A stretch of 27,978 nt of DNA, taken from a virus. The notes under the pieces were generated by a model, which searched no databases, had not been told where the DNA came from, and was given only the letters and a program-made list of their open reading frames with translations. The position numbers were made by a program, and so were the translations under genes. The stretch spans positions 1 to 27,978 of IMG/VR virus record IMGVR_UViG_3300020183_000365; one strand, given 5' to 3'. This document shows, in pieces, positions 3,014 through 27,978 of this stretch. The first letter of the stretch is position 1; each line of letters opens with the position of its first letter.

Positions 3014-3406
3014 ATGGCTAGTTATTCAGCAAGATTGCCCTTAGCTTATGACCCAAGAGAAGGGTATAGCGGGCTTGTTACTATTAAAGATGTAGCACTT
3101 CAAAATTTAAAAATGGTTCTCTATACAGAACCGGGTGAAAGAGTGTGGGATATAGATTTTGGTGTAGGAATTAAAAGATATTTATTTGAACAAAGTTCAA
3201 ATATTACTTTTTCTAATCTTCAACAAAGAATAAGACAACAAGTAACAAAATATCTTCCATATATACAAATACTAAATCTTAGTATAAATGCAATAAACGA
3301 AAATAATGAAATTGTTGAAAGCTCTAATTTTGTTAAGGTAGATATATTTTTTTCTATTTCTGGTGTTGGAAGTTTTCGTTTTTCTGAAACTGTATCTACT
3401 TCATAG
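3014..3406 (+). CDS. 25: Baseplate wedge subunit, T4 gp25-like
   Basis: A 130-residue protein, close to the 132 residues of T4 gp25. Family features visible are the central motif TEPGERVWDIDFGVGIKRYL followed by FEQ, and the later LQQRIRQQVTKYLPYIQIL helix. The family is the gp25/GpW-type wedge protein. In myoviruses it sits in the inner wedge and is linked to triggering of sheath contraction. The next gene encodes a gp6-like protein, the same 25-6 order as in T4. The coding region ends with tandem in-frame stops TAG-TAA (3404-3409). The ATG at 3014 lies 18 bases after the previous stop in an AT-rich leader with no evident Shine-Dalgarno sequence. Confidence 0.92.
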   Translation: MASYSARLPLAYDPREGYSGLVTIKDVALQNLKMVLYTEPGERVWDIDFGVGIKRYLFEQSSNITFSNLQQRIRQQVTKYLPYIQILNLSINAINENNEIVESSNFVKVDIFFSISGVGSFRFSETVSTS

Positions 3407-6654: not shown

Positions 6655-9600
6655 AGATCTTTTTAGTGTAAAGAAAGTACTTCCTCCAATTAGTAATGAA
6701 CAAATTGAAGAAGAAGTTGAATCAGTTGAGCTTTTAGAATCTTATACTATTGAAAAAAATAGAATTAAGTTTCCAATAGACTTTGCAACTGCTTCAAACT
6801 TTGTGGTATTCGGGTCTGCTCAAAAATATTACACAGATGCAATCAATAGAATTTATCAACAATATCCATATGATGGATCTAGAAAAGAAAAGATTGATTG
6901 GGAAAATTCTTCTTCACAACTTGATATTTGGTTTTTAGATAACGTTTACCCAAAATCTACAGGTTATGCAACGTTTTCACCAAATGGTTGGTCCACTCCT
7001 GTCGGAAGTCAAATCAATGGCTATGGTGAACCAACTACAAAAGAATATATTAGCATCAAAGGTGGGCCAAATCCAAGCCTCACAGCTACTACATTAGTTG
7101 ATAAATTTAAAGATGCTAACAATCAAAATCAAAAAGCAAACATTTTTAACGTAGGCGATAGCAGAGATAATAATTTACAATTGAACCTTTCTGGTGGTGT
7201 TACTGTTGAGTTTTGGTTGAACAAAAATTCATTTATTACTTCTAGCACCCAAAAAGAAGTAGTATTTGATTTGTGGAATAATGCAGCCTCCTCCAGTAAT
7301 TCATATGGTCGTTTAACTGTTGAATTATCTGGTACAACAGGTTCTCCATTTTATCTAACAATTCTTTCTGGTACTACTGGTTTAGCGTCATTAAATTTAG
7401 GTTCCTCACTTACAACTTCATCAGTAGCTAATGGAACTTGGAATCACTATGCTGTTAGTGCTATAAATTCTGGTAGTTCAATTAATGTTAAGTTTTACGT
7501 TAATGGAGAACTAAACTCTCAATATATAACTGGAAGCAATATCGGTTCAATTACTGGTTCAATGCTTGCTAATATTGGTGCTCTTAGAACTGCTGCCTCT
7601 GGTGCATCTGGTACATCAGTAGGTTGGGGTAAACTTTCTGGTTCTATAGATGATTTTAGATACTGGAAAACAGAAAGAACATCAAGAGAAATAGGCAGAA
7701 ATTGGTGGACAAATGTATATGGTGGTACAAATTCAGATACTGCTAATATAGATTTAGGCGTATATTACAAGTTTAACGAAGGTGTAACAACAACTTCTTC
7801 TGTTGATTCTACTGTATTGGATTATTCTGGTAGAGTATCTAATGGTACTTGGACAGGTTATTCATCTGCTTCAAGAAACACAGGCTCTGCTATCAATCTA
7901 TATTCTGGTGCAACATTAAGCACAGAAATAGGTGACCCAATTATCTATAACACCCACCCAGATGTTCAATCAGTTATAGAAGAATATGCCACAATTGGTT
8001 CCGACCACGATAGAACCAACCCAAATTCAATCTATTATTCTTTCCCAAATTGGATTATAGACGAAGATAATAATGGTGAATTATTAAGCTTGTCACAAAT
8101 TATGGCAAGTTACTTAGACACACTATATTCACAAATTAAATACTTCCCATCAATCAAAGAACCATATGCAAACATCCAAATTGATGAAAAACCATACCCA
8201 TTTGCATCCAATTTATTAGAATCATTAGGCGTTATAACTCCTCAATTATTCATCGATGCAAAGTTTATGGAGGAAGTTCTATCAAGGGATGAAGATAGAA
8301 ATTACGAAGATAAATTACATGAAATTAAAAATGTTATTTATGAAAACATTTATTCCAATCTTCAATCAATTTTAAAAACAAAGGGTACTGAAAAGTCTTA
8401 TAGAAACTTAATTAGATGTTTTGGTATTGATGAATCATTAGTAAAATTGAACATTTATTCAAACAATGATTCCAAGATAGTTTCTGATGATTTATCTAAT
8501 ATCACACTAAAGAAAACATCATTAAACTTTAATGATACTGATAGATTCCAATCAACGGTATATCAATTTTCAACTTCTTCAAATACAGATTCTAATTCTT
8601 TCATTACTGGTTCTTTAGCTGGTACATACGATTACACTCCATTTACATTTGAAGTCGATACCGTATTCCCACAAAAGTTACCACCAAATCATCCATTATT
8701 CTTCCCAACTTTATTCTTAACTTCATCTATATTTGGTGTACATTCTGCAAAAAATACAGCCACAGATTTAACTTGGGATACAAATGATTATTGTAACTTC
8801 CAAGTATATGCCGCAAGACCAGAACTTGAGTCACCACACGCCACTTTCTATCTCTCTTCATCTAATACTTCGATTCCTTTCCTTTCATCTTCTTTATACT
8901 TTGATGTATATAACAATGAAAAATGGAACTTTGCAGTTAAAATTAAACCACAAAGTTTAGAAAATGCAAATATTGTCTCTGGTACAACATCACAAGATTA
9001 CATAATTGAATTTTATGGTGCTTCTACTGTTGGCGATAGTGTAATTAGAGAGTTTACTGTATCTGGTAGCATTTCAAACGCTGCTGGTCTTAATATCGCA
9101 AGAGCAAATAAAAGACTATATGCTGGTGCGGAAAGAACCAATTTCTCTGGTTCACTAATAAAACAAACCGATATCAAATTACTTGATTGTAAAGTATGGT
9201 CTTCTTACCTATCAAGAGAAGAAATACTAGCTCATTCAAGAGATAGTGATAACTCTGGTATTAAAGATGCTTATATAAATTGGAAAGTATCAGATACAAA
9301 TTATCAAAATATCTTAATTCCAAAATTTGAGACACTATTATTACATTGGAACTTTAACCAAATTACAGGCTCTGATGCTGGCTCTGGGACTCCAAATGCC
9401 TCAGATGGAAAGTTTGTAGTCAACGATCTAACCTCTGGTTCGGTATCTTATAATAGATACAACTCAGCATTTAATAATCTTAAGAAATATCAATATTTGG
9501 GTCGTGGTGATTATTTCCTACAAAACGATACTACAATTGTTGACACTCAATATTTGTTTACTTCAAGAATAAATGAATTTGAAAATATACAAAATTCAAA

Positions 9601-12600
9601 CTTAATTAATATTTTAACAACTGATGAACAAAACCAAACAAGACAAAGAGATACAAGACCAGTAAATTACTTCTTCTCATTTGAAAAGAGCATGTACGGA
9701 ACAATCTCTACAGAAATGTTAAAGATGTTCTCAACAATATTAGATTTTAATAAACTTGTCGGTAATCCTGTAAACAAGTACAGAAAAGAATACAAAGATT
9801 TAGCTAAACTAAGACAACTATTTTTCTTACAAGTTCAAAACGAACCAGATTTAGATAAATATCTTGATTTTTATAAGTGGGTTGATTCTGCTGTTGGTAA
9901 ATTATTATTACAAATGGTTCCCGCTTCAGCAGATACTTCACATGGTTTACTTAACGTAATAGAAAGTCATGCATTAGAAAGAAACAAACATCAATATAAG
10001 TTCCCAACAATTGAATTTAAAGAACCAAATCTTGAGGTTGGTTTTAATGCTATCAATGAACTAACATATAATTGGAAATTTGGACATAGACCGATTTCAC
10101 AAGATGAAAGTGAAAATTGTTTATATTGGAATGAAAAAGCAGAACGTGACCAATCACCACTTTCCTCTTCCGTTTCTGCTTCAAATTATTCAAGAGAAAG
10201 AATCCTTGATGTTACATTAAACACTTTAAATAGAAAGTTCACAACTCCAATACGCCTTGACATTGAAAAAGAAAAACAAATTAAAGGTGGTATTAATTAC
10301 AGCGATAATAAAAATCTTGATTTTGTTAATATCGCTACCGCCCCACACGGTCCTTTGGATACCGATGATGTAATAAATGTACCTGCAAATTATTTGTTTG
10401 TAGGAATCGAAAACACTTCATCTGTAATAAAAGATTGCTCCGATACATATAAACCAAATGAAAAGGTAAAATATCATTTCTCTGTTGTTCATGGTAGAGA
10501 TTATAATCCTGCAACTTTGGATTATAATCAAGTAGTTAAAAGTGAAATTGCATTACCAGCAAACTTTATAAGTGGTAATGTTACAGACGGATATAATAAA
10601 GAATTAAATGATAATCTTTTCTCTGGTATAGTAATAACTAACTTACACAACGACTCATATGGTTCAACAAAAGAAATACCAGTACAAGGACCATTTACAA
10701 ATGCTTGGGTTGGTGGGCATCAATCAAGACACGTATCTTTAAATACTGGTAGTGATAATTATCTTAATAGACCAGAAGCATGGAAAGTCTTATTTGGTAT
10801 TCTTACTTCTTCTGTGTATCAAGCAACATTTGGGTTTGTTGGTGCTGATTATCCATACCCAGAAGGCAACGTAGACGAACCATCTTATCCAGTTAGAGGA
10901 CACAAAAGAGCTACATACTACCGTGATGGTACTACAAAACGTCCATTAAACATAGCCAATATAGCAACCACAACTGGTTCTAATAACTTAGGTAATTATT
11001 CACATAGATATCAATACGCACATAAATTTGGTAGAACCCAAAGATTAGGTAAATTACTTCCTACTTCATCAGTTAATACACAAACAGAATTATATGGCGT
11101 TTTAAGAAGTAATATAACTTCTGGTAGAGTTAATTTTGAACTACCAACTACATCAAAGTCAGAAGTAATATTGGTAAATAAGTTCTCTTCTCCCGGTGAT
11201 TATAGAACCATTTCAAGAGGATATTTAAATCTTTATGGCGAAGAATATTCTCCATATAATGCAATTCCATTTAGAAATAGAACTGTTCTAGGCGATGGTA
11301 GAAGAAACAATCTTGTATTAACAAATGATTCTCACCTATACTCACCAAGTATCATTTCTGGTTCCACAAATCCATATTATAGTTTGTTAACCAAACCATC
11401 TGCATTTGGTGGTTATGAAAGTGGATCTGCAACAGTAGCTTCTGCTCACAAAGTTAATAGAAATCCAGTTTGGGTAGTTGAGTATTCTGGTGCAATTCCA
11501 ATAATAACTAAAGAATTTGATAACGGATTTTATTCATATTCTATTCCAAGAAAAGATACTGGTTATGCTTGGATTAAAAATGCTTTACCCAAAGTTGTAG
11601 CTCCCCCCGCAACAGATTTCTGGGAAGAATATGAACACGCCAGTAGTTTATCTATCGTTCCAATTTCAAGTAGTGCTATTAGTTCCTCAGATTTAAACGC
11701 AACAACTAATATAAATTTTGTTGGTATGTCTATTGGAACCGCAATAATAGATACAATACAAAACAATCAATGTGGTGCAGAAATACCAACTTTACTCGGT
11801 ACTTTATCTCCTAAAGTTCCATCAACTACAAGAGCTTTAAATCTTAACAGAAATGGAGTTTTTGGTTTTTCATCATTTAAACAATTATCTCATAATAGAA
11901 ATAATAAAGTTTTAAGGCAACTTAATAATACTAACAATATTACAGTCTATGATGCAACAACAGATTCTGTTACGTGCTACAGAGAACCATCTGTTTATTA
12001 TAGATATCCAATGATGGCTACAATAGAATACATTGGAGGTTCCGAACTAAATAAATCCGAAACCACATTTGACGTTGAATTCCCATTCGATACTGTGCTT
12101 CAATTAATTGACAATTTTAAATTAGCTAACAATATTAATACTAAACAACTAGAACCAAAAATTTATAATAACTTAATCACAAAGTTAATTACTGACTCTA
12201 CAAATTATAGATTGGTATCTTTGACTTATAAACAACAAATATACCCAAATAGAATTGTTCAAACACTTGAAACATATAAAATAAGAGATTCCTATGAATT
12301 CTTAAAAAATTCAATCGGTTGGAGAGATGATAGAGAAAATAGAGATGTATTAATAGACTCTGATACAGAATATTATATTCCATTTAAATCTACCTTGTTT
12401 TCAGTTACTCAAAGTATTTGGCCGTTAGATAGATTTAGTTCTACAGGGTCAGATTATTCTATTAGTACTTCAACTTCAAGTGTATTCGACGGTTTTGGTA
12501 TCTTACAGAATAGATATGTTGTTTATCCCGTAACTTTAACTTCTAGTAATACTGCTTCTGTGTATGTGGGACCAGTTTATAACCATAATCATTTACTCGC

Positions 12601-15514
12601 TTCACCTACAAGTTGGAATTCTATTTCTTCCAAGCAAATAGTAAATATAACAGCAAATCCAAATACATATTTCTTTAGTACTGGTAGTGGTTTATATGAT
12701 GGAACTGCACCTTGGTCAGCAGGACAACTTTCTGGTAAAAATCCGTACAATGATTCTTTTGATGATTGGTATAGTTTATTAAAATATAAAAACAAAAATT
12801 ATCAGATAGTACCAGAATTTAAATTAGCTAGAAATGATAATCCAAGTTCATTCCAAAAAATTCAAAAAGCTATTTCTGGTGATTTTAGTTCTGGTTTATT
12901 TTCATTTGACTTAGATGGTTCAAATACTTTTACGTCCATAAGTGAAAAAACAAATTTCTTAGAATCAAATAAAATTGTAAATATTGAAAAAATTAATAAA
13001 GATGTAGACACAAAAACTGTTAATTTAACTTTAACTTGTGAAAGCTTAATCAAACTTAACCCAGAACCAGCATTCTACCCTTCAAATAGAACATTGGATG
13101 TTTGTAAGCAATTTATTGATAACACAATTGATTCAATAAATGTTTGGGGTTATGATGGAAGCACTATAACTCCAGTAACAAATTTTAGTAAAAATATTGG
13201 TTTAAATAATTTCTATAGACCATTTATGCAACCCGGAATTCTTTTTAATACAATTAAATCTGGTATGGCTGTAGATTTCCCAATCATAACAAGTTCTTTA
13301 ATAGTTACAAGTAGCTATTATAATTCAAACAATGAAGTAAGTGGACAAATAGATTATCAAATTGGAAATTCACAATTTGATTTAAGATTACCATTTGAAA
13401 CTATAATTGAACCAGAGGAAAATTTGGCTAATATAGATTTAGTCAACATGATTCCACTAGATTCACAATATAGATTATTAACTTCATCTTGGAACGGCGT
13501 CTTTACTGGAGATACTTCTTACAAGTATATGATACATAACTTCTTAGCTGAAACAATAGACTTCTTCTTAGAAGATTCTAAATTAACATCAATAACTTCA
13601 AAACCAGAAGAAGAATTTGGTATTGTTACACCCGGAAAACAATATAGAGCATTAGTAAAAGTTTATAAATCAAAAGATAAAAATGCAAAAAGAAGTTTGA
13701 CAACAAATATTTATACAAGACCACAATTTTTACCCGTTTCTGGTACAGATTATATAAATGACCCAACCGAACAAGAAACAATAACAATGTATAGCCGAGC
13801 TAGTGCCTTCGGCCCCCCTTGTGCTGGAGGGGTAAGAGGACACTATTCAGCCAGTGGATATACAAAAGGTGTTATTGACTCTACAAATGGTTATTACCCA
13901 TCTTTTACACCACCATATTATGATGGTGAGGCTTGGGCTATTTTAACATATAATCCCACAGGTTCTAAGCCATATAAACCATCATTAGAAGACATAATAC
14001 AAAATATTACCGCTTCTTACATAAGATTTGAAGGTCAACCAGACAATAACGGTAATGAAACGGTGGATGGTATTCACGTTGTTGCTGAATCTGGTAGTAC
14101 TACCTATGGTGGCCCATTAAGCAAAGGAAGATTGAATTTTAATTCAATGCAAGTATCTGCATCATTAAATCTATTTAATGTTGTAGAAGTTGATTCAACA
14201 AGTGTAAATAATTTAGATAATATTGTAATTACAACTACAAAATCTAAAGTTTGGGGTATACAAACTAAATTTGAAACTCCTATTTTAGATTTTGGTATTA
14301 CTCCAAATGTCTATACAAGTGACAAAAATAAAACAATAGGTATGTGGCACCAATACGGTTATATTCCTGCTGGAACTGACGGTATTTATATGCAGATTAC
14401 TGATTTACCAAAAGATTATATTTTAAGTGGGTCAGAGTCAGATGTAGCCACAACCATTACTGGAAGAAGTTTACAGTTAACTGGTTCTCTTACAGATATC
14501 GTAGGGTTTTCTAAAGACCCAATTAGATTAGGTAAAGTAGCACCTTCAAAAACTATAAAAGAAGCAATAATTGTAATACCATATTATAGTGAAAATAACG
14601 AAAGAAAATATTTCTTCTTTAATAATTTAGTAAAAGAATATATTCAATTTTTGAAATCAGACTCTGCAAATGTGAAATCATTTGATAGAATAAAAGAAAT
14701 ACCTCAAAGCATTATCAAACAAATCAATACAATGAGTGAATATGTTTTACCTCCACCAATTGATTTTATAAAAAATCAAATTCAAAATCCATTTTTTATG
14801 TATATATTTGAATTTTCATACACTTTGAGTCAACAAGATTTGGTTGATATTTGGCAAAATTTAATGCCAAGTATTGCATTAAATTTTGATGAACAATCTA
14901 CTTCAATAACACATTCTTTAGATATTGAAGATACCCTAACTGAACTTGAAATGAAAGATAGGTTAGCCAACATTCGATGGTTAACATTTAAGGTAAAATA
15001 TAAAGCAAAAAATAATTATAAATCTAAAGTTTTTAAATCAATTAAGAATACAAATAATAAGAAAGCGGTTAAAGATTCACAATTTACTAAAACTAGAATC
15101 TCCTCATTTGATAATTTTGAAGAACTAGATTATTCATACAATTGGCCTTATGACTACTTCTCTATGATAGAAGCAACTAAAATAATAGCTCAAGTAGATT
15201 TTATTGACTCAGATAGAGTCACCCAACAATTAGATAAGGTAGAAAATTCAATTAAATCATTAAATAAGAACGTTATTGAAAATGCACAATTAACTACCGA
15301 AGTGGCTGGTACAAATGTTTTAGCTACACAAGAACTTTTACAAAATACAATAAGCGTAAATACTATAGCACAAAATAATGTTAAAGTTTCCGAAAATGCT
15401 ATGAATACACCAAATCTTCAAGTCTCTTTGAATCAAACTACAGATAATGTTGAAGTTGCAGCAACCGCGATTAATTCTCCTGTATTAACAAATACTACAT
15501 TAAGAAGAACATAA
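6644..15514 (+). CDS. Giant baseplate/tail protein with two LamG-like domains
   Basis: At 2956 residues (8.9 kb, nearly a third of the window) this is the largest gene. Visible domains, approximately: residues 174-405, a LamG/concanavalin-like jelly roll (GGVTVEFWLNK, GTWNHYAVSA, GSIDDFRYW); 575-595, KTKGTEKSYRNLIRCFGI, a motif typical of phage tail proteins; 640-930, a second LamG-like region (EKWNFAVKI, KLLDCKVWSS); 1070-1120, DFYKWVDSA to PASADTSHG and ESHALERNK. Later motifs are VNRNPVWVVEY and IPRKDTGYAWI (~1604-1645), SRASAFGPPC (~2384), FTPPYYDGEAWA (~2420), GMWHQYGYIP (~2566) and YNWPYDYFSMIE (~2832). The last ~100 residues are Asn/Thr/Val-rich. LamG folds often bind glycans, so a receptor-binding or baseplate-arm role is likely but inferred. 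The gene starts inside the preceding gene (ATG at 6644) and has no internal stop or frameshift. Confidence 0.92.
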   Translation: MSLKDLFSVKKVLPPISNEQIEEEVESVELLESYTIEKNRIKFPIDFATASNFVVFGSAQKYYTDAINRIYQQYPYDGSRKEKIDWENSSSQLDIWFLDNVYPKSTGYATFSPNGWSTPVGSQINGYGEPTTKEYISIKGGPNPSLTATTLVDKFKDANNQNQKANIFNVGDSRDNNLQLNLSGGVTVEFWLNKNSFITSSTQKEVVFDLWNNAASSSNSYGRLTVELSGTTGSPFYLTILSGTTGLASLNLGSSLTTSSVANGTWNHYAVSAINSGSSINVKFYVNGELNSQYITGSNIGSITGSMLANIGALRTAASGASGTSVGWGKLSGSIDDFRYWKTERTSREIGRNWWTNVYGGTNSDTANIDLGVYYKFNEGVTTTSSVDSTVLDYSGRVSNGTWTGYSSASRNTGSAINLYSGATLSTEIGDPIIYNTHPDVQSVIEEYATIGSDHDRTNPNSIYYSFPNWIIDEDNNGELLSLSQIMASYLDTLYSQIKYFPSIKEPYANIQIDEKPYPFASNLLESLGVITPQLFIDAKFMEEVLSRDEDRNYEDKLHEIKNVIYENIYSNLQSILKTKGTEKSYRNLIRCFGIDESLVKLNIYSNNDSKIVSDDLSNITLKKTSLNFNDTDRFQSTVYQFSTSSNTDSNSFITGSLAGTYDYTPFTFEVDTVFPQKLPPNHPLFFPTLFLTSSIFGVHSAKNTATDLTWDTNDYCNFQVYAARPELESPHATFYLSSSNTSIPFLSSSLYFDVYNNEKWNFAVKIKPQSLENANIVSGTTSQDYIIEFYGASTVGDSVIREFTVSGSISNAAGLNIARANKRLYAGAERTNFSGSLIKQTDIKLLDCKVWSSYLSREEILAHSRDSDNSGIKDAYINWKVSDTNYQNILIPKFETLLLHWNFNQITGSDAGSGTPNASDGKFVVNDLTSGSVSYNRYNSAFNNLKKYQYLGRGDYFLQNDTTIVDTQYLFTSRINEFENIQNSNLINILTTDEQNQTRQRDTRPVNYFFSFEKSMYGTISTEMLKMFSTILDFNKLVGNPVNKYRKEYKDLAKLRQLFFLQVQNEPDLDKYLDFYKWVDSAVGKLLLQMVPASADTSHGLLNVIESHALERNKHQYKFPTIEFKEPNLEVGFNAINELTYNWKFGHRPISQDESENCLYWNEKAERDQSPLSSSVSASNYSRERILDVTLNTLNRKFTTPIRLDIEKEKQIKGGINYSDNKNLDFVNIATAPHGPLDTDDVINVPANYLFVGIENTSSVIKDCSDTYKPNEKVKYHFSVVHGRDYNPATLDYNQVVKSEIALPANFISGNVTDGYNKELNDNLFSGIVITNLHNDSYGSTKEIPVQGPFTNAWVGGHQSRHVSLNTGSDNYLNRPEAWKVLFGILTSSVYQATFGFVGADYPYPEGNVDEPSYPVRGHKRATYYRDGTTKRPLNIANIATTTGSNNLGNYSHRYQYAHKFGRTQRLGKLLPTSSVNTQTELYGVLRSNITSGRVNFELPTTSKSEVILVNKFSSPGDYRTISRGYLNLYGEEYSPYNAIPFRNRTVLGDGRRNNLVLTNDSHLYSPSIISGSTNPYYSLLTKPSAFGGYESGSATVASAHKVNRNPVWVVEYSGAIPIITKEFDNGFYSYSIPRKDTGYAWIKNALPKVVAPPATDFWEEYEHASSLSIVPISSSAISSSDLNATTNINFVGMSIGTAIIDTIQNNQCGAEIPTLLGTLSPKVPSTTRALNLNRNGVFGFSSFKQLSHNRNNKVLRQLNNTNNITVYDATTDSVTCYREPSVYYRYPMMATIEYIGGSELNKSETTFDVEFPFDTVLQLIDNFKLANNINTKQLEPKIYNNLITKLITDSTNYRLVSLTYKQQIYPNRIVQTLETYKIRDSYEFLKNSIGWRDDRENRDVLIDSDTEYYIPFKSTLFSVTQSIWPLDRFSSTGSDYSISTSTSSVFDGFGILQNRYVVYPVTLTSSNTASVYVGPVYNHNHLLASPTSWNSISSKQIVNITANPNTYFFSTGSGLYDGTAPWSAGQLSGKNPYNDSFDDWYSLLKYKNKNYQIVPEFKLARNDNPSSFQKIQKAISGDFSSGLFSFDLDGSNTFTSISEKTNFLESNKIVNIEKINKDVDTKTVNLTLTCESLIKLNPEPAFYPSNRTLDVCKQFIDNTIDSINVWGYDGSTITPVTNFSKNIGLNNFYRPFMQPGILFNTIKSGMAVDFPIITSSLIVTSSYYNSNNEVSGQIDYQIGNSQFDLRLPFETIIEPEENLANIDLVNMIPLDSQYRLLTSSWNGVFTGDTSYKYMIHNFLAETIDFFLEDSKLTSITSKPEEEFGIVTPGKQYRALVKVYKSKDKNAKRSLTTNIYTRPQFLPVSGTDYINDPTEQETITMYSRASAFGPPCAGGVRGHYSASGYTKGVIDSTNGYYPSFTPPYYDGEAWAILTYNPTGSKPYKPSLEDIIQNITASYIRFEGQPDNNGNETVDGIHVVAESGSTTYGGPLSKGRLNFNSMQVSASLNLFNVVEVDSTSVNNLDNIVITTTKSKVWGIQTKFETPILDFGITPNVYTSDKNKTIGMWHQYGYIPAGTDGIYMQITDLPKDYILSGSESDVATTITGRSLQLTGSLTDIVGFSKDPIRLGKVAPSKTIKEAIIVIPYYSENNERKYFFFNNLVKEYIQFLKSDSANVKSFDRIKEIPQSIIKQINTMSEYVLPPPIDFIKNQIQNPFFMYIFEFSYTLSQQDLVDIWQNLMPSIALNFDEQSTSITHSLDIEDTLTELEMKDRLANIRWLTFKVKYKAKNNYKSKVFKSIKNTNNKKAVKDSQFTKTRISSFDNFEELDYSYNWPYDYFSMIEATKIIAQVDFIDSDRVTQQLDKVENSIKSLNKNVIENAQLTTEVAGTNVLATQELLQNTISVNTIAQNNVKVSENAMNTPNLQVSLNQTTDNVEVAATAINSPVLTNTTLRRT
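13804..13832 (+). repeat. GC-rich hairpin-forming patch inside giant gene
   Basis: Within otherwise AT-rich coding sequence, a short stretch is strongly GC-rich and can fold twice. GCC-TTC-GGC (13805-13813) gives a 3-bp stem. CCCCT (13815-13819) pairs perfectly with AGGGG (13828-13832) around an 8-base loop. The codons used (GGC, CCC, GGG) are unusual for this genome. The encoded residues, SRASAFGPPCAGG, may simply be conserved, which would explain part of the composition. No T-run follows, so it is not an obvious terminator. Confidence 0.4.
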
Positions 15515-15541: not shown

Positions 15542-16543
15542 ATGGCACTTTTTAATCCAAAAGAAGAAGTTATTAATATTGAGTTAACAAGCTATGGTAA
15601 ATTTTTACTTTCAAGAGGTAAATTTAGACCAGCTTATTATTCTTTTCACGATGAAGGAGTTGTTTATGATTCCGAATACGCAGACTTTGAAGAAAATTCA
15701 AATACATCAGAAGTAAGAATACAAGAAGAAACTCCACATTTAAAACCAAATTATTCTTTTTCTTCTCCAAAAGCTTCTATCAATAAAGATATATCTCAAA
15801 TTAATTTATTGATGAATAAGTTTGAACTTGCCTCGACAAGAAATGGTCTTCAATATTCAGAACAAATAAAAGAAGTACTAAGTAATTCAACAATTTTGAA
15901 CAACTATATTCCATCATGGGAAATTTATAATTTATCATCAGATTATAGTAGTGTGACCTCTTCTACAACAACAGATAATATTCCACAGTTTAATTTAAAT
16001 TTAGAAATTAATGTTATAAAAACAAATCAAGAAACATTGCAAAACAATGAAGTATTGCAAAATTTATCTTTATTAAATGAAATTGTTTATAATGGTCAAG
16101 ATGAAATTTATATAACAGTTTTAAAACCATTAGTATTAAAAATTATAGAAAACAATACAGATTCAAATATTGATAAACTTGATATCAAAATATATAAACA
16201 AAATACAAATGAAGATGGTACATTTTCATACAGTCAATTAAAATTTTTACAAGAAAACGTAAATTATGATGAAGAAAATGATTTATATGTAAATATATCT
16301 AATGTAATATCGAACCAACAAGAAATTGATAATAAGTATGTAGAATACTATTTTGATGTAAAATTAGACAAAGAAATTACTGATATGTATAAGTGTAGAT
16401 ATATATTGCGTTCTGATGCAGACCAAGATTTAATCTTCAACAATATTGAAGACTGTAATGATTTGAGAGATAGACTAAATACTCAAGACCTCTATCGTGA
16501 CAATCCAATATTAGATGATTTAGCAGTAGGAAAGAAGTGCTAA
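15542..16543 (+). CDS. Virion protein with N-terminal 'LTxxGK-LSRG' module
   Basis: A 333-residue protein. Residues 9-47 form a module (EVINIELTSYGKFLLSRG, KFRPAYYSFHDEG, VVYDSEYADF) that closely parallels residues 8-48 of the protein at 21331. Both show the pattern L-T-x-x-G-[KR]-x-x-L-[SA]-R-G, then F-[RK], an aromatic, x-F-x-D-[ED]-x-V-x-Y. The rest is acidic, Asn/Ile/Tyr-rich and probably beta-structured, ending in AVGKKC. No enzyme motif is visible. Its place after the giant LamG protein suggests a tail or baseplate decoration role, perhaps with the N-terminal module as a docking element; that is inference. The ATG at 15542 follows an AT-rich leader with no clear Shine-Dalgarno sequence. 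The stop overlaps the next ATG by one base. Confidence 0.87.
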   Translation: MALFNPKEEVINIELTSYGKFLLSRGKFRPAYYSFHDEGVVYDSEYADFEENSNTSEVRIQEETPHLKPNYSFSSPKASINKDISQINLLMNKFELASTRNGLQYSEQIKEVLSNSTILNNYIPSWEIYNLSSDYSSVTSSTTTDNIPQFNLNLEINVIKTNQETLQNNEVLQNLSLLNEIVYNGQDEIYITVLKPLVLKIIENNTDSNIDKLDIKIYKQNTNEDGTFSYSQLKFLQENVNYDEENDLYVNISNVISNQQEIDNKYVEYYFDVKLDKEITDMYKCRYILRSDADQDLIFNNIEDCNDLRDRLNTQDLYRDNPILDDLAVGKKC

Positions 16544-18792
16544 TGTTTTATGAAAAACTAGGAAATAATCTTTTTGTTCCAAATATATTTGTTAATACTT
16601 TATTAATAGATAATTCATTCACCGACAGTAGTGAAATAAAAAACAGTTTAACGATAAATTTAAGTTACAAAAGCAAACAAAACTTTGTAGATCAATTACT
16701 ATCAGATAGCCAATATCTTTCATATATAAAAATTATAGTTGCATTAGTTACTGATAACTCTATTATTAAAACGGCAAAACAAAACTTTAATCCTAAATCA
16801 CCAGATGAATCATTGGCAAGTTTGTTTAGGGATGCAGAACAAACAAAAGTAATTAGTTTATCTGAGTTTACTGATTTTCTTGAACAAGACCAAGTAACTG
16901 GTGAATATTCTGGTACTTATGAATTCTTTTTTTCTGACATTAAAGCAACACCAGATATGGGTTTGGTATTTTTCCCATATGTTGATTTTAAATCTTTTGC
17001 AGATGATAACTCTATTTCATATGATACATTAGGTAATATAATTTCTAAATTTGATAATGAAATACACTTATATCAAATTATGAATAATAACCTCGTACAA
17101 GTAAACAATGTTGTTACGGATATGAGAGATTTAACACAATTTAAAAATAATCTTTTTACATTACTACCAAATATTGGTTTAATTAATTTTGATATTATAA
17201 ATTCAAATCCAAGTAAAAAACAATATTTCTTTGATTTATATCCATCATTTAATTCAGAAAATACTAAAGTAAGATTATATACACTTTTTAATATTAAATC
17301 GTTTATTGAAAACTTTTCTGCATTAAAAAAGAGTTATGGATTATTTACCGAAGATATTTTAGCTATTTTAAAACGTAAACCAATAGTGGTTAATATCACC
17401 AAAAAATATTCTACATCAGATACGATTTATCAAGTTGGTAGTTTCACTCTTTCTGTAGATGAAATAATTAGGTCTGGTTCTGTAGATGCACGTTATCATG
17501 TTACATTAGAAAATAATATGGTAATATCATTTATGGATAACTGTCCAGAATCTAGCACTAAGATTAATTATGAATTTGAAATTATATTTTCCGACCCTAT
17601 GTTAAAATATTTCTTCTTAAACGATACTAATTCTTCTTGTGTTTATAACCGTGTAATACAAATATATTCTCAAATTCAATCAATTGTGTGTATAGATAAT
17701 CCAATGATTTCTGATGCTAAAACTGGTAAATTTGAACGAGGATTTATAATTTCTAATAATTCACAATTAAAAAATACAGTAAATTTGTTTGTAGATAATT
17801 TTATATCTTTGTTAAATTTATTCTCAACTTTTGATGTAAAACCAGACCAAATAACAAAAATAAAAAATTTGTTAGATATAGAAAGGTCAACAATTTTTGT
17901 ATATATTGATTTTTATTCATTTGTTAATAAAGTATTAGTTGAAATTGGAAATATTTTTTCTCAACTTAATATTGCAGATGTAATATATTATAAAAAATTT
18001 GATTCAATTAAATTTGAAGTAGTTCCAAGTGTTGAAATAGAAACGTTATCTTCTGATATCTTATCGGGAATAAACGCAACCGAGGCGACTCCTGCTGGTG
18101 AGGAAAGTATGGGTGTTGTTTACAACAAATTCAATGATATTAAAATTGGCTCATATACTTTAAAGAAAGAAAACATTAAATCAACAAATCAAACAAGTTA
18201 TTTATTAAAAAATTCTGTTATTGCAACAGCAAATTCTCTTGTACCTTTTTCTAATGAATATGATTTATCATTCAACTACAATGAATCAGAAGGTTTGATC
18301 TTAAAAGAAACTAACACAAAATTTGAAATAGACACATCAAATACAAATGGTAAAAGAAAAGTATCAATTAACAAAAAAAGGAGTTCTAATAAATTATTGA
18401 ACAACTCATTTGGAAGTACCACATCAGTTTCTTTTAATGTGCCTTTCCCTACTGAAACTTTCGGAATGTCTAATCCAAAAGATGATTTGAAAAATTTCAA
18501 AGCTAAAAAAACAATTAATGAATCCATTCAAAGTTCAAATTTGCCTAAAGAAGAATTTATATTTAATGTTGCCACCAATTTAAGTACGACACCAGAAGAT
18601 TTACTTCCAAAATCGCAGCTTGAATATTTAACATTTGAGAACAATACTCTAAAATGGAAAGTTATTGAGCAAAGTTTAGGATTATCTGGAACTTATTTTA
18701 TAAGGACTTCTTATATGATATCTGGCGACTTATATTCCAAAAATAATATTGCGCCAAAGATAGCAAATGAATATAGAATAATTACTATTTAA
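16543..18792 (+). CDS. Large virion protein, unassigned (749 aa)
   Basis: I place the start at the ATG at 16543, which overlaps the upstream stop as TAATG, as seen elsewhere in this block. A GTG two codons upstream (16537) is also possible. The N-terminus reads MFYEKLGNNLFVPNIF, then NTLLIDNSFTDSSE. Residues up to ~500 look mixed alpha/beta with no recognised motif. A linker-like stretch rich in Ala/Thr/Pro/Gly/Glu lies near residue 510 (NATEATPAGEESMG). The C-terminal part is Ser/Asn/Lys-rich and closes with a probable beta region (TYFIRTSYMISGDLY). There is no signal peptide or membrane segment. The flanking genes are all structural, so I infer a virion component, likely of the tail or baseplate, but I do not recognise the family. 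Confidence 0.85.
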   Translation: MFYEKLGNNLFVPNIFVNTLLIDNSFTDSSEIKNSLTINLSYKSKQNFVDQLLSDSQYLSYIKIIVALVTDNSIIKTAKQNFNPKSPDESLASLFRDAEQTKVISLSEFTDFLEQDQVTGEYSGTYEFFFSDIKATPDMGLVFFPYVDFKSFADDNSISYDTLGNIISKFDNEIHLYQIMNNNLVQVNNVVTDMRDLTQFKNNLFTLLPNIGLINFDIINSNPSKKQYFFDLYPSFNSENTKVRLYTLFNIKSFIENFSALKKSYGLFTEDILAILKRKPIVVNITKKYSTSDTIYQVGSFTLSVDEIIRSGSVDARYHVTLENNMVISFMDNCPESSTKINYEFEIIFSDPMLKYFFLNDTNSSCVYNRVIQIYSQIQSIVCIDNPMISDAKTGKFERGFIISNNSQLKNTVNLFVDNFISLLNLFSTFDVKPDQITKIKNLLDIERSTIFVYIDFYSFVNKVLVEIGNIFSQLNIADVIYYKKFDSIKFEVVPSVEIETLSSDILSGINATEATPAGEESMGVVYNKFNDIKIGSYTLKKENIKSTNQTSYLLKNSVIATANSLVPFSNEYDLSFNYNESEGLILKETNTKFEIDTSNTNGKRKVSINKKRSSNKLLNNSFGSTTSVSFNVPFPTETFGMSNPKDDLKNFKAKKTINESIQSSNLPKEEFIFNVATNLSTTPEDLLPKSQLEYLTFENNTLKWKVIEQSLGLSGTYFIRTSYMISGDLYSKNNIAPKIANEYRIITI

Positions 18793-18801
18793 TAGAGAAA
18801 T

Positions 18802-21315
18802 ATGAAAAATACTTATTATCACCCTAGTTCTGTAACTACCGTAAATGGTAATCAATTGTATTCAAATATTAGTACAATTGGTTCACAAATCAAAGCAAAA
18901 ATATATGAGTACTTTACAGATAGTTCTGGTGCTGTAACATTTAATAAATCAAATGTTAATGGATATAAAAATTTAGTTGCTGATTATGCAAATTTTTCTG
19001 CATTAATTAAATCTTTATTTTTAGCTTCAAAGATAGATGACCCAATAAGGTCAATAATTGGAAATTATTACGTTTTTGATACAGATTTATTAAATAATAA
19101 AATAATTTATCTATTCAACTCAAACGAAGACCCAATTGATAAAAACTCTTATCCATTTCCGTTTAAAGATTTATTTTCTTTAGAAATTACAAAATTAGAA
19201 AGTACTAGTAAAGTATCAAAATTTGAAAACGTTAATATTTCAATTAATAATACAACTTTATATAATTTTATTTCCAAATATATTTTTGATGATATTGAAA
19301 ATGTTTATACTTTAAGTTTATTGACTCTTTTATTCAATTATGTTTTTAAAGATACAATAAACAAGTTATTACAAGATAGTGGTGAGTTTTATTATTGTAA
19401 ATATCAACAAGACAAGCATAGTGAAAAAAACATTTCTTCTAGGAATGGGGATTATTTATCTTATAACTTATCTTCTGAATACAACCAGTACATCCAAAAA
19501 TATGAAACTTATTTTTCTTCATCATTAAGAAGAGAAAGTGTAATTCCAAATTATTATATTACAGACTTATATTTAAATGACCAAAGCCAAAAAATAGCAG
19601 AAAAGGTTGTAACATTAAATGGATTAGTTGATGTTACAAAAGAAACTGTTTTGGGTGATAAATATTATATTGATTTAATCAGTAAACTATCTTCGTTAAC
19701 AGCAGAACAAATTACTTCATTACCAAATATAAGAAATATTTTGTTGGATGATGAATTAACAAATATAGAAAATGTAACATTATCCTCCGAGAATTTTCCA
19801 TACAACATAGATTTAAAGTTTAACAATTATTACGCAGATGGAATAATCCAAGCACTTGAAAATCATAAATTAAATATTTTAGCTACCAATAATTATTTAT
19901 CCCCTGCTACTCAAAAAACCAATTTTAATTTCTATGTTAGCTCAGATGAAATTATTAAACAGCCCACAACTGACCCTGACGCTTATATTGATTTAGATGG
20001 TTCGTTATATAACTTAATAATAAACAACAAAGTGTTCAATCGTGATATAGAAGGGGTTGAGTATGATTCAGTTCTAAAATTTGAAGAATCATATTCATTT
20101 TATCCAAATCCTAATTTAAACTTGTTTTTAACTGATAAGACAAGAAAAATTTATAACTCAAATAAAAGTTCATTTTCATTATTTGAATATTTAAAAATAA
20201 CTTCTGCACTTCATTCATCTATAGAATCAAGTTTAACGTTAGATACAATATTAAACAATAATTATATAAATTGTTCACCTATTGCTTTCCAAATTTCTAA
20301 AAAAGTTAATAACAATACAATACAAAATATATTCATTCCAAGAAATAGTAAAATTTCTGATATCTCATATATTGATACTCAAGTAATTTATGATAAAATT
20401 TATAGATACGATATTGATATTTTAAACTTAGTACAGCAAATAAATTATAGTTACAAATCATCTTATACGAATATTGAAGATTTGATTAATTCCGCTATTG
20501 GTGTTGAAGAAGTAAATATAGACTATTCAAATGTACAAGTACCAATTTCATTAACATGCACTACAACACAAAATTATTTCTTTTACAAGAATAATTTATT
20601 TACCGATAATGCTGTAGTAGTTGATGACCCTCCGACTCCAATTGACGTTAATATTGTACCCTATATTGGTTCTCCAAATAGATTGTTGTTCTTGTTTAAC
20701 ACACAAGATACAACAATTAAAAGTGCCCCAATTATTATTTCAGAGTCTGACAAACAATATTTTGTAAAAGTTAGGCATAAGCAAAGACCAGACAAAAAAG
20801 AAATTTTATTTCAAACTGTAACCGATATTTCATCTATTCAAGTATTTAAATCTTCTACCAGACCAAAATCATATAGGGATTTTTCTAATTCTTTAAATAA
20901 TATAATTTTACTAAATGGGAATACGTCTACTTCTATTGTTGAAACATTGGAACAAAATAAAAAATATTATTATACCTTTAGAAGTGTCGATGTACATGGT
21001 AATATTTCAAATCCAACTGATATATTTGAAGTTAAAATAATAAACAATGATGGTGCAATATATCCAATAATAGCTCCATATTATTTCGACCAAAATCAAA
21101 AAATAAATATGGAAAAATCATTTAAGAAATATTTAAGTATAGACCCTGCTATTATACAACAACAATTAACATTTGACGAAAGTGGAAATTCACAACTAGG
21201 AATTGATAATGGGTTTTGGGGTAATACTTTTAAAATCAGAGTTATTTCCAAAGAAAGTGGAAAAGCATTTGATATAAACTTAAACTTTACAAAAAAAATA
21301 ATTGAGACTATTTAA
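18802..21315 (+). CDS. Large virion protein with FN3-like C-terminal region
   Basis: An 837-residue protein. Residues 1-600 are Asn/Ser/Tyr/Ile-rich with no recognised motif. From about residue 605 (PPTPIDVNIVPYIG) to 755 there is a fibronectin-type-III-like pattern: SIQVFKSSTRPKSY, then LEQNKKYYYTFRSVDVHGN, ISNPTDIFEVKI. The last ~50 residues (FKIRVISKESGKAFDINLNF) look like a separate beta cap. FN3-like modules are common in tail proteins of phages and usually act as spacers or weak adhesion domains. The ATG at 18802 is 9 bases after the previous stop, preceded by a weak GAGA. It sits between structural genes, which supports a tail or baseplate role. The domain call is from pattern only. 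Confidence 0.85.
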   Translation: MKNTYYHPSSVTTVNGNQLYSNISTIGSQIKAKIYEYFTDSSGAVTFNKSNVNGYKNLVADYANFSALIKSLFLASKIDDPIRSIIGNYYVFDTDLLNNKIIYLFNSNEDPIDKNSYPFPFKDLFSLEITKLESTSKVSKFENVNISINNTTLYNFISKYIFDDIENVYTLSLLTLLFNYVFKDTINKLLQDSGEFYYCKYQQDKHSEKNISSRNGDYLSYNLSSEYNQYIQKYETYFSSSLRRESVIPNYYITDLYLNDQSQKIAEKVVTLNGLVDVTKETVLGDKYYIDLISKLSSLTAEQITSLPNIRNILLDDELTNIENVTLSSENFPYNIDLKFNNYYADGIIQALENHKLNILATNNYLSPATQKTNFNFYVSSDEIIKQPTTDPDAYIDLDGSLYNLIINNKVFNRDIEGVEYDSVLKFEESYSFYPNPNLNLFLTDKTRKIYNSNKSSFSLFEYLKITSALHSSIESSLTLDTILNNNYINCSPIAFQISKKVNNNTIQNIFIPRNSKISDISYIDTQVIYDKIYRYDIDILNLVQQINYSYKSSYTNIEDLINSAIGVEEVNIDYSNVQVPISLTCTTTQNYFFYKNNLFTDNAVVVDDPPTPIDVNIVPYIGSPNRLLFLFNTQDTTIKSAPIIISESDKQYFVKVRHKQRPDKKEILFQTVTDISSIQVFKSSTRPKSYRDFSNSLNNIILLNGNTSTSIVETLEQNKKYYYTFRSVDVHGNISNPTDIFEVKIINNDGAIYPIIAPYYFDQNQKINMEKSFKKYLSIDPAIIQQQLTFDESGNSQLGIDNGFWGNTFKIRVISKESGKAFDINLNFTKKIIETI

Positions 21316-24515: not shown

Positions 24516-25058
24516 ATGACTACTAAAATTTATTATTTAGGCGTAGATATAAGTACGTCAAAAATTGGTATTGCTGTTATAGATTCTGACAAAAATATTG
24601 TTGTCAGCGAGGTAATCAAATTTAAAGACGGTAATTCACTTGAAGAAAAAGCACAATTGTTTGAAAATAAACTTTTAAAATTAAACAAGTATTATTTTAT
24701 TTCAGATGTGTTTATTGAAGAACCATTTGTTGCATTTGGAGGCGGGAAAACAACCGCACAAACAATGGCAAAACTTCAAAGATTCAATGGTATGTGTTCT
24801 TATACTGTATTCAAGGTATTTGAACATCAAGCAAATATGGTTAACGTCCGTTCAGCACGTTCAAAGCTTGGAATAAAAATACCTAAAGGTTTAAAAGAAA
24901 AAGAAGTTAAAAATACAATTATCGAATGGGTTTCTAATAAATTTGATACTTTTAAGTATGATATGACAGCACACGGAAATCCATTACCCGGCACAGATGA
25001 TAGAGCAGATGCAGTTGTTATAGCATTATATGGTGTTGAACATCTACTTAGTGTATGA
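24516..25058 (+). CDS. RuvC-like Holliday junction resolvase
   Basis: A 180-residue protein with the RNase H-like fold signature of RuvC-family resolvases. The first strand is YYLGVDISTSKIGIAVID, with catalytic Asp11. An acidic pair in VFIEEPF (Glu68/Glu69) follows. The C-terminal DDRADAVVIALYG supplies the D-x-x-D pair (Asp162 and Asp165). Cellular RuvC is about 170 residues, so the length fits. RuvC enzymes cut four-way DNA junctions symmetrically. In phages they resolve recombination and replication branches before packaging, a job T4 gives to endonuclease VII instead. An AAAGGA at 24506-24511 sets the start. The stop overlaps the next start as ATGA. A less likely alternative is another RNase H-like nuclease. 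Confidence 0.9.
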   Translation: MTTKIYYLGVDISTSKIGIAVIDSDKNIVVSEVIKFKDGNSLEEKAQLFENKLLKLNKYYFISDVFIEEPFVAFGGGKTTAQTMAKLQRFNGMCSYTVFKVFEHQANMVNVRSARSKLGIKIPKGLKEKEVKNTIIEWVSNKFDTFKYDMTAHGNPLPGTDDRADAVVIALYGVEHLLSV

Positions 25059-25699
25059 ACTTCAAACATATAAAGAAGAAACAAGAAAAGCTTATACTTG
25101 AACTTAAATATCATTATGCAGATTTAGATTATCATGAAGATGTTTTCAAAGATGCACAAGAAGAATTTAAAGAATCATTTTATGAACTTGCTCCAAAATT
25201 TGGTTTTAATGTAGAAAAACCAAAACCAGTAGAAATTTTGTTTAATACTGAGTTAAGCAGAACATCACCTTATGAATTCCAAGAAAGGGTCGAACAACAA
25301 TCTCAAGCAGTAAGCAATCAAATTTTAGAGTTTGAAAAAGAAGAACAAGACCCAGACATTCATAGCCTTTTTAGAAAAATAATTAAACTTACTCACCCAG
25401 ACACTTTTACAGAAGGTGAAACTGTTGAACAAAAACATAAAAAAACTCAAATGTTTTTAAAAGCGAAAAATGCCGCAGAAAATAAAAATTGGTATGAATT
25501 ATCGCAAATAGCTTTAGAATTGGGGATAGAGTTACCAGAGCCAACAAAAAAACATTTAAAATGGCTTGAGGCCGAAATAACAAGAATAAAAGAAAGAATT
25601 GCTCACATAACTTCAACATATGCTTGGCTTTGGTTTACAAGTGATGAGAACCGTGATAGTATAATGGAACAATATATACAACGAGTAAAATCAAAATGA
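25055..25699 (+). CDS. J-domain (HPD-motif) protein
   Basis: A 214-residue, highly charged and helical protein. Residues ~101-155 match a J domain: helix II HSLFRKIIKLT, the invariant HPD at 114-116, a short loop, then helix III KKTQMFLKAKNAAENKNW and YELSQIALELG. J domains stimulate the ATPase of Hsp70 (DnaK). The N-terminal 95 residues are coiled-coil-like (KKKQEKLILELKYHYADL), and residues 165-214 form a further helical region (LEAEITRIKERI) probably used for partner binding. No zinc-finger or Gly/Phe region of classical DnaJ is present. ATGA overlaps at both ends tie it to the resolvase and primase genes. It may recruit host DnaK to remodel replication or recombination complexes; that is inference. 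Confidence 0.82.
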   Translation: MNFKHIKKKQEKLILELKYHYADLDYHEDVFKDAQEEFKESFYELAPKFGFNVEKPKPVEILFNTELSRTSPYEFQERVEQQSQAVSNQILEFEKEEQDPDIHSLFRKIIKLTHPDTFTEGETVEQKHKKTQMFLKAKNAAENKNWYELSQIALELGIELPEPTKKHLKWLEAEITRIKERIAHITSTYAWLWFTSDENRDSIMEQYIQRVKSK

Positions 25700-26619
25700 A
25701 CAAAGTTGAAATTCTAAAAATTGCTTTTGGTGATTGCAAAAGACAAAAAGATGAACTTTTATTCTTTTGCCCATTTTGTAAACATCATAAAAATAAATTT
25801 TCAATTAACACAAATACGAACAAATATAAATGTTGGGTTTGTGATGTAAAAGGAAATAATATACGACGACTTATCAAAAAGTTTGTTTCTGCATCTATTC
25901 TTCTTGAATGGGATAGGCTTACTGGTCGTTTGAATATTACAGAACTTGATTCTATATTTGACGACAATACAAAGGTAGAAGAAACACTTATAGATTTACC
26001 AAAAGAATTTGTTTCTCTCGCAAATAAGAATCTTCCTAAAACATCACTTGCACCACTTCGATATCTTTATGACCGAGGGCTTACAAAGACTGATATATTA
26101 AAATGGAAAATGGGCTATTGTTCAAGCGGTCAATATGAAAACAGAGTAATTGTTCCTTCCTTTAGCTTGGATGGAAATTGCAATTATTATATTGCTCGCT
26201 CTATTGTTGATGCATGGCCCAAATACCTCAACCCAGAGGCTTCCAAGGACATTTGTTTTAATGAGTTATATCTTGATTGGGGTAAAGACGTAACGCTTGT
26301 AGAGGGCGTATTTGATGCGGTTAAATGCGATAATGCAATACCACTTCTTGGCTCAACATTAAATGAAAATTCTACCTTATTTAGAAAGATAGTTTTCAAC
26401 GATCCAACCCTATATATTGCCCTTGACCCAGATGCAGAAAAGAAAGCTCGTAGTCTTGTAGATAAGTTAATTGAATATGATTTAGAGATTTACAAGATTG
26501 ATGTAAGTGGTTATGATGATGTTGGAACTATGACAAAAGAAGAATTCAATAAAAGAAAATTGGAGGCATTACCAATAAACGATGATTGGATTCTTGAAAG
26601 TCAACTATTGGCGGTATAA
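25696..26619 (+). CDS. DnaG-type DNA primase with zinc finger and TOPRIM
   Basis: A 307-residue protein. The N-terminus holds a zinc ribbon, CPFC at 25-28 and CWVC at 46-49 (two CxxC pairs 17 residues apart), used by primases to recognise template. A region with RVIVPSFSLDG at 150-160 and YYIARSI resembles the RNA-polymerase domain of DnaG-like primases. The TOPRIM core is visible as VTLVEGVFDAVK (Glu203) and LYIALDPDAEKKA (Asp244 and Asp246), the metal-binding residues. It is shorter than cellular DnaG (~580) and lacks a helicase-binding C-terminal domain, closer to T4 gp61-like primases (~340). It would make RNA primers on the lagging strand; the partner helicase is not in this window. ATGA overlap upstream and TAATG overlap downstream. 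Confidence 0.92.
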   Translation: MNKVEILKIAFGDCKRQKDELLFFCPFCKHHKNKFSINTNTNKYKCWVCDVKGNNIRRLIKKFVSASILLEWDRLTGRLNITELDSIFDDNTKVEETLIDLPKEFVSLANKNLPKTSLAPLRYLYDRGLTKTDILKWKMGYCSSGQYENRVIVPSFSLDGNCNYYIARSIVDAWPKYLNPEASKDICFNELYLDWGKDVTLVEGVFDAVKCDNAIPLLGSTLNENSTLFRKIVFNDPTLYIALDPDAEKKARSLVDKLIEYDLEIYKIDVSGYDDVGTMTKEEFNKRKLEALPINDDWILESQLLAV

Positions 26620-27978
26620 TGAAAATTGCACATATTTCTGATATTCATATTCGGAATTTTAAATATCATGATGTTTATAATAAGGTTTTTGATAATTTAT
26701 ATTCTCGTTTGGTTGATATTAGACCAGACATAATTATCAATACTGGCGATACTGCCCATACTAAGCTACAACTTTCCCCAGCATACTTTGATATGACCGC
26801 TAAGTTTTTTACTAAACTTGCGGAGATTGCACCACTACATATTATTGTTGGCAATCATGACCTAAATCTCAATAATCTTTCCAATGTTGATGCAATTACT
26901 CCAATCGTAAATGCACTACAAAATTCTAATATTCACTATCACAAAGAGTCCGAAGTATTCCAAGTTGGAGATATTGACTTCCATGTTCTTTCAATGGTTG
27001 ATCCAGACAATTGGAACCTAAAGCCAAACCCAAATAGAATTAGTGTTGGTCTTTATCACGGGTCAGTTGCTGGGGTAAAAACAGACCTTGGTTGGACTAT
27101 GGACCACGGGGATATTGAAGTATCTAATCTATCTGTGTTTGATTATGCTCTTTTGGGCGACATTCATAAAACTAATCAAGCTTTGGACGAATTGGGTAAA
27201 GTTCGTTATTCCGGCGCTCTTATCCAACAGAACCATGCGGAAAGTAATGATAAAGGGTTTTTACTTTGGGACATTAGAGAAAAGAATGATTTTGATGTAG
27301 AACACATTCAATTACCAAACCCAAAACCATTTATTTCTGTAGAACTATTGGAAGATGGTTCCTTACCAGATATAAATGTTCCAGAAGGTTGTAGACTTAG
27401 AATCATTTCTTTATCGAATCATTCATCAGAAATTAGCAAGAAAGCAGCAGAGTTAGCAAAACAAAAATATAAACCAGAAAGCATTGCATTTCTAAATAAA
27501 TATGTAAATGCTTCTGTAGGCAAACAACAACTTCTTCTGAAAGAGAATCTGCGTGACATAAACGTTCAGCAAACTTTGATAAAAGAATATCTAAAACCTT
27601 TTAATCTCTCAGAGAGTGTTGTGAATCAAATCTTGGAATTAAACAAGAAATACAATACAACTGCATCTGAACACGAAGATGTTTCTCGTAATGTAAATTG
27701 GAAATTAAAACACCTTCAATGGGATAACCTTTTCAATTATGGCGAAGGAAATCAAATTAACTTTTCTAATCTGAATGGAATCGTTGGTATTTTTGGGAAG
27801 AACTATAGTGGTAAGTCAAGTGTAATTGATTCTGCCCTTTATACTCTTTTCAATACAACTTCTAAAAATGATAAGAAAGTAGCTAATATTATCAATCAAA
27901 ATAAGAAAAGTGCAAAGGGTGTAATAACTTTTGATATTGATGGATTTGATTACACAATTACACGTAAAGTTGAAAAAG
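26619..27978 (+). CDS. sbcCD: SbcD-SbcC (Mre11-Rad50) fusion, 3'-truncated by window
   Basis: One open frame starts at the ATG overlapping the primase stop (TAATG) and runs off the window: 453 residues are visible with no stop. Residues 1-~260 are an Mre11/SbcD phosphoesterase: SDIH (Asp8, His10), NTGDTAH (Asp44), VGNHD (Asn79, His80), GLYHG (His147) and LLGDIHK (Asp181, His183). The last motif is usually GHxH, so one metal ligand is Asp here. Residues ~265-360 are helical linker. From ~362 (WKLKHLQWDN) the Rad50/SbcC N-terminal ATPase begins, with Walker A GKNYSGKSS at 393-401 followed by VIDSALYTLF. The coiled coil, hook and Walker B would lie beyond the edge. In T4 these are separate proteins, gp47 and gp46, that process ends for recombination-dependent replication. 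Confidence 0.93.
   Translation, partial: MKIAHISDIHIRNFKYHDVYNKVFDNLYSRLVDIRPDIIINTGDTAHTKLQLSPAYFDMTAKFFTKLAEIAPLHIIVGNHDLNLNNLSNVDAITPIVNALQNSNIHYHKESEVFQVGDIDFHVLSMVDPDNWNLKPNPNRISVGLYHGSVAGVKTDLGWTMDHGDIEVSNLSVFDYALLGDIHKTNQALDELGKVRYSGALIQQNHAESNDKGFLLWDIREKNDFDVEHIQLPNPKPFISVELLEDGSLPDINVPEGCRLRIISLSNHSSEISKKAAELAKQKYKPESIAFLNKYVNASVGKQQLLLKENLRDINVQQTLIKEYLKPFNLSESVVNQILELNKKYNTTASEHEDVSRNVNWKLKHLQWDNLFNYGEGNQINFSNLNGIVGIFGKNYSGKSSVIDSALYTLFNTTSKNDKKVANIINQNKKSAKGVITFDIDGFDYTITRKVEK

Follow-up and report, generated by a model that had tools for sequence, protein, structure and literature searches.

The last gene of the window encodes an Mre11 (SbcD) nuclease and a Rad50 (SbcC) ATPase in one polypeptide; the single-chain fusion was confirmed as real and as widespread in aquatic phages. 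The window, which is the whole stretch of DNA that was analysed (27,978 bases), is an entire IMG/VR record of a virus contig. The gene product is very probably the SbcDC of a contractile-tailed phage, a dimeric, ATP-gated nuclease that processes DNA ends. Read directly from the data were the single frame, the order of the domains, their motifs and fold, the short linker, the sole copy in relatives and the genomic neighbourhood.

The ATG-started frame 26619-27977 contains no stop (453 aa) and is still open at the contig end (27977/27978). Mre11 stands first and Rad50 second within this uninterrupted frame, as the original prediction had it. In the window protein, Pfam Metallophos was matched by residues 1-102 (8.7e-10) and AAA_23/SMC_N by residues 363-433 (1.7e-5/6.2e-5, both below the curated cut-offs). 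Matches to both the SbcD and the SbcC families, for which the original prediction had proposed a search, were obtained with PHROGs: the SbcD profile covered residues 1-341 (4e-36) and the SbcC profile began at about residue 363 (5.7e-17). The N-terminal lobe of Rad50/SbcC with its Walker A motif is present in the window; because the contig ends soon after Walker A, the coiled coil, hook, signature and Walker B are absent from it, and these, together with the D-loop, were found in complete relatives, including the nearest one (L001; 69% identity). The features are as follows, all on the plus strand:

24516-25058, plus: RuvC-like Holliday junction resolvase gene, in the same gene run (phrog_159, 8.7e-15)
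25696-26619, plus: DnaG-type phage primase gene (phrog_47, 4.1e-38), overlapping the start of the fusion by one base
26619-27977, plus: Mre11(SbcD)-Rad50(SbcC) fusion gene, 3′-truncated by the contig end (453 of ~1,050 codons)
26619-27503, plus: Mre11/SbcD nuclease and capping domains, residues ~1-295 (AlphaFold2 model; structure alignments of L001 1-295)
26640-26648, plus: motif I, D8-x-H10 (invariant in 45/45 aligned relatives)
26748-26759, plus: motif II, GDxxH with D44 and H47, canonical form GDxxD (invariant, 45/45)
26853-26861, plus: motif III, GNHD with N79, H80 and D81 (invariant, 45/45)
27057-27059, plus: H147, motif IV histidine, equivalent of P. furiosus Mre11 His173 (equivalence by motif order; invariant, 45/45)
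27159-27167, plus: GDIH with D181 and H183 replacing GHxH, so that Asp occupies the site of P. furiosus His206 (invariant, 45/45)
27558-27674, plus: helix-loop-helix, residues 314-352, putative Rad50-binding domain of Mre11 (AlphaFold2; position; analogy with PMC3175470)
27675-27698, plus: linker of ~8 residues, 353-360 (pLDDT <50 at 352-359; first Rad50 strand from 361)
27699-27977, plus: N-terminal lobe of the Rad50/SbcC ATPase, cut by the contig end (Pfam AAA_23/SMC_N; structure alignment of L001)
27795-27818, plus: Walker A, GKNYSGKS, residues 393-400 (nearly invariant among relatives)

Conservation of the motifs was scored on 45 aligned sequences, in which D8, H10, D44, H47, N79, H80, D81, H147, D181 and H183 are invariant. 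The set of Mre11 metal ligands is complete save for GHxH, in whose place GDIH stands in the window and in all 45 sequences, as well as in the fusions of Mel-JY01, LR756501, RHph_TM61 and pT24. GHxH was read in 9/9 separate SbcD/gp47 proteins (T4, P-HM1, S-PM2, BSP38, Cr30, phiM12, a Moorella phage, an Arcobacter plasmid and E. coli). The GDxxH of motif II is not peculiar to fusions, as BSP38 and the Arcobacter protein read GDLFH. Both changes, GDxxD to GDxxH and His206 to Asp, have been reported for R555 of Mimivirus (PMC3175470) and correspond to H47 and D181 of the window, R555 being compared here by its published description. On the Rad50 side, Walker A, the SGAEK signature, Walker B, D-loop and H-loop are conserved in complete relatives. 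Separate SbcC/Rad50 proteins carry a canonical CXXC hook, whereas the cysteine spacing varies within the single family of the window: C-x6-7-C was found in most relatives, CX2C in a minority (L028, L029, L032, L033, L035, L046), C-x3-C in L013/L014 and CKC in L016 and its kin. With His206 replaced by Asp and the hook spacing altered, neither nuclease activity nor dimerisation through the hook is assured, and the Asp in GDxH may alter cleavage.

Since every viral fusion examined reads GDxH and every separate SbcD examined reads GHxH, the single-chain enzymes might be a class apart in function, with a changed active site that has, for example, another metal or cutting preference, although this is rather doubtful. 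It is unlikely that the fusion serves chiefly to tether DNA ends, its nuclease being weakened or altered and bridging or endonucleolytic nicking its main role. Metal binding would be changed by the His206-to-Asp replacement and by the His of GDxxH, GDIH is invariant across the family and also in four other fusions while the nine separate proteins keep GHxH, and R555 shares both changes (PMC3175470); however, all other metal ligands are invariant, Asp is able to bind metal, and a dead nuclease would be expected to have lost more ligands. A DNA-end nuclease stays the preferred reading.

Structures of the window protein and of L001 were modelled with AlphaFold2. In both, nuclease and capping domains extend to ~295 (capping-domain strands and helices at window residues 195-298) and are followed by a loop, a two-helix helix-loop-helix, ~8 low-confidence residues and Rad50. 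The two helices lie at 314-328 and 332-352 in the window and at 316-330 and 334-353 in L001 (pLDDT mostly 80-93). With VIA-align, L001 1-295 was superimposed on S. aureus SbcD (7dog; Z 23.4, 3.8 Å over 273), E. coli SbcD (4lty; Z 21.9) and P. furiosus Mre11 (1ii7; Z 20.9), and L001 363-1026 on Rad50/SbcC heads (7yzo_D; Z 24.9, 3.7 Å over 330); the first residue of several solved Rad50/SbcC chains falls on L001 residue 363 (Z up to 25). The aligned ranges leave out the helix-loop-helix, which was taken as the putative Rad50-binding domain of Mre11 from its position and from the R555-type analysis in PMC3175470. The ~100-residue helical linker supposed in the original prediction was rejected: the two models place the end of the capping domain and the helix-loop-helix there, and from these models and the L001 alignments the segment is Mre11's own C-terminal part, the true linker being ~8 residues long. 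How an Mre11 dimer and a Rad50 coiled coil assemble when joined had been raised together with that long linker; the question had already been addressed (PMC3175470), and the premise of a ~100-residue spacer fell. In the Thermotoga complex the Mre11 C-terminus lies ~28 Å from the Rad50 N-terminus, so that a linker of 9-12 residues suffices (PMC3175470), close to the ~8 residues of the window. The full model has a pTM of only 0.52, and the placement of the domains relative to one another, including the coil root on which the helix-loop-helix sits, is therefore a prediction. That one polypeptide acts as two proteins, by protease cleavage in the linker or by an internal start at the Rad50 part, is very improbable: the linker is short and predicted to be disordered (pLDDT <50), but the geometry of the two-protein complex accommodates the chain without any cleavage (PMC3175470).

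A search of IMG/VR gave 72 loci as relatives, which, together with PMC3175470, bears out the suggestion in the original prediction that similar fusions may occur in environmental phages. A single open frame spans the nuclease motif and Walker A in 61/72 loci; ten of the other 11 are on contigs whose start lies past the nuclease motif, and the last (L057) has a break within its nuclease part. A stop or frameshift between the domains, named in the original prediction as evidence against a fusion, was thus seen neither in the window nor in these 61 relatives. Complete relatives have ~1,030-1,080 aa, or up to 1,367 aa with an insert. Several fused relatives (L002, L016, L017, L025, L044 and others) have no ATG at the position of the window start and apparently use GTG/TTG. 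Between the window and L001, differences are in excess at third codon positions throughout the junction and its two flanks, which indicates translation of the linker region. The fused gene is also present in the complete genome of Microcystis phage Mel-JY01. Full-length BFVD matches were obtained to single-chain viral proteins: a giant-virus protein of Tupanvirus (5.9e-57; same layout, 24% identity, best structural match) and one of Tenacibaculum phage pT24 (2.1e-40). BFVD holds many more single-chain viral proteins of this layout, and A7KV18 (Bacillus phage 0305phi8-36) was listed among the matches. An assembly or sequencing artefact that merged two adjacent genes through a lost stop or a frameshift was ruled out and has next to no probability, for although the window is a lone metagenomic contig with its gene running off the end, the same frame is shared by 61 independent relatives from many metagenomes and by Mel-JY01, the spacer has only ~8 residues, and the junction shows a purifying pattern against L001.

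Insertions were observed in the nuclease part of some relatives. In the fused protein of L050 (IMGVR_UViG_3300032223_003030, 4801-8901) a ~320-aa insert splits GNHD (GNHD/CFSADHEIL...ICITGN/CNLKND) and has the look of an active-site intein. In L076 (huge phage LR756508.1, ~5600-6800) a separate ORF with many C-x2-C pairs (zinc-ribbon, homing-endonuclease-like) breaks into the nuclease part after GDIHKRQ...YLNSGWKL, and the frame resumes at SGSLIQQNHGESL; Rfam gave no match, and no intron, on the interrupted copies including L076. In L025/L027 an in-frame insert ending in DKDLDKYLEDGWEIVEE lies just after GDIHKTNQ, the same place as the L076 interruption, and the frame of L057 is broken there too. 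The site after GDIH is a recurrent insertion site in the nuclease domain (L025, L027, L057, L076).

The second sign against a fusion in the original prediction, a separate SbcD or SbcC gene, was not found with PHROG profiles in the contigs of 17 relatives (68-194 kb) or in the complete Mel-JY01 genome; this test was run on relatives, the window's own genome being visible as a 27,978-base fragment. Extra phrog_77 matches in these contigs are weak and confined to the coiled-coil part. One contig (G006) has a second SbcD match at its far end (190049-190390; 120 model positions), which looks like a terminal overlap of the contig. Three matches to the fusion were obtained in cellular genomes, all of them MAGs (one on a contig of 24 kb, another on one of 7.8 kb, and the third, cut short by an X/N run, in a WOR-3 chromosome); they were read, though this is not proven, as viral contamination or chimeric joins. 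The plasmid search returned separate genes only and no fused match.

Enzymes of this kind have been known since 2011, and the window adds another, from a group of phages that generally carry the fusion. In 2011, Yoshida, Claverie and Ogata reported Mre11/Rad50 single chains from Mimivirus (R555), Bacillus phage 0305phi8-36, plasmids, bacteria and eukaryotes; R555 homologues were abundant in aquatic viral metagenomes, with phage primases on some of the same scaffolds, and a metagenomic fusion could be confirmed only for a few long sequences (PMC3175470). The window protein resembles R555 in its Mre11-then-Rad50 chain, in keeping the capping domain and the helix-loop-helix, and in its short linker, and its gene adjoins a phage primase, as on the scaffolds of R555 homologues; unlike R555 (1,351 aa, giant amoeba virus), it belongs to a phage, and its relatives have ~1,050 aa. 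The Mel-JY01 protein (WWT39521.1, 'AAA domain containing protein', 1,066 aa) is likewise fused and GDIH-bearing, falls in the same clade in both trees and has a primase homologue just upstream; it differs in being only ~33% identical, in its CKHC hook and in a small ORF between primase and fusion. The proteins of pT24 ('DNA repair', 1,310 aa), RHph_TM61 (959 aa) and the huge phage LR756501 (1,202 aa) also combine both domains and GDIH in one chain, but are highly diverged from that of the window. T4 gp47/gp46 and E. coli SbcD/SbcC share domains, gene order and folds with the fusion, and differ in being two proteins, in GHxH instead of GDxH and in their canonical CPTC/CPLC hooks.

In trees of the two parts, the window family, Mel-JY01 and LR756501 form one group (99/99, Mre11 part; 96/97, Rad50 part), which stands apart from the nine separate pairs in both. 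RHph_TM61 lies outside the window's clade in both trees, which suggests that there may have been a second fusion event; the number of events is unsure because of the long branches. In T4, cyanophages, the Arcobacter plasmid and E. coli, sbcD/gp47 is followed by sbcC/gp46, and with this shared nuclease-then-ATPase order the loss of a stop and spacer would yield the fusion.

A primase homologue was found in 46 loci searched, positioned upstream of the fusion in relatives, and a RuvC-like homologue in 40; the group as a whole conserves the upstream primase, the RuvC-like gene and three more upstream genes. A GPW_gp25 baseplate protein (3014-3406; Pfam, 2.8e-10) points to a contractile-tailed phage. 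Elsewhere in the window, a 2,956-codon open frame (6644-15514) without a Pfam match lies amid structural-type genes, and two adjacent long ORFs (751 and 837 aa; 16537-21315) without Pfam/PHROG matches occupy its most AT-rich part (22-28% GC).

By homology, the most likely role of the enzyme is that of an SbcCD/gp47-46-type nuclease for resection of DNA ends in phage recombination and replication. Its N-terminal part would supply a complete Mre11 (nuclease, capping domain, Rad50-binding helix-loop-helix) and, after ~8 linker residues, the remainder a complete Rad50, as in relatives, with a coiled coil, tipped by a cysteine hook, between the ATPase lobes. A dimer is suggested by the folds and the short linker: two chains would most likely build the usual M2R2 head, in which Mre11 dimerises, two Rad50 heads clamp ATP and each helix-loop-helix rests on the coiled-coil root of either its own chain or the partner. 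ATP-driven opening and closing would control the access of DNA ends to the nuclease, and the 3′ single strands produced could feed recombination-dependent replication, repair or breakdown of host DNA. The separate gp47 and gp46 of T4 carry out the same end processing for these purposes. Activity and biological role are assigned to the fusion by this analogy.

Complete sequences and entire contigs show that a broad group of aquatic phages has no Mre11-Rad50 enzyme other than the single-chain form. Its fixed 1:1 stoichiometry makes it convenient for structural and single-molecule work, and the GDxH active site allows a simple mutational test.
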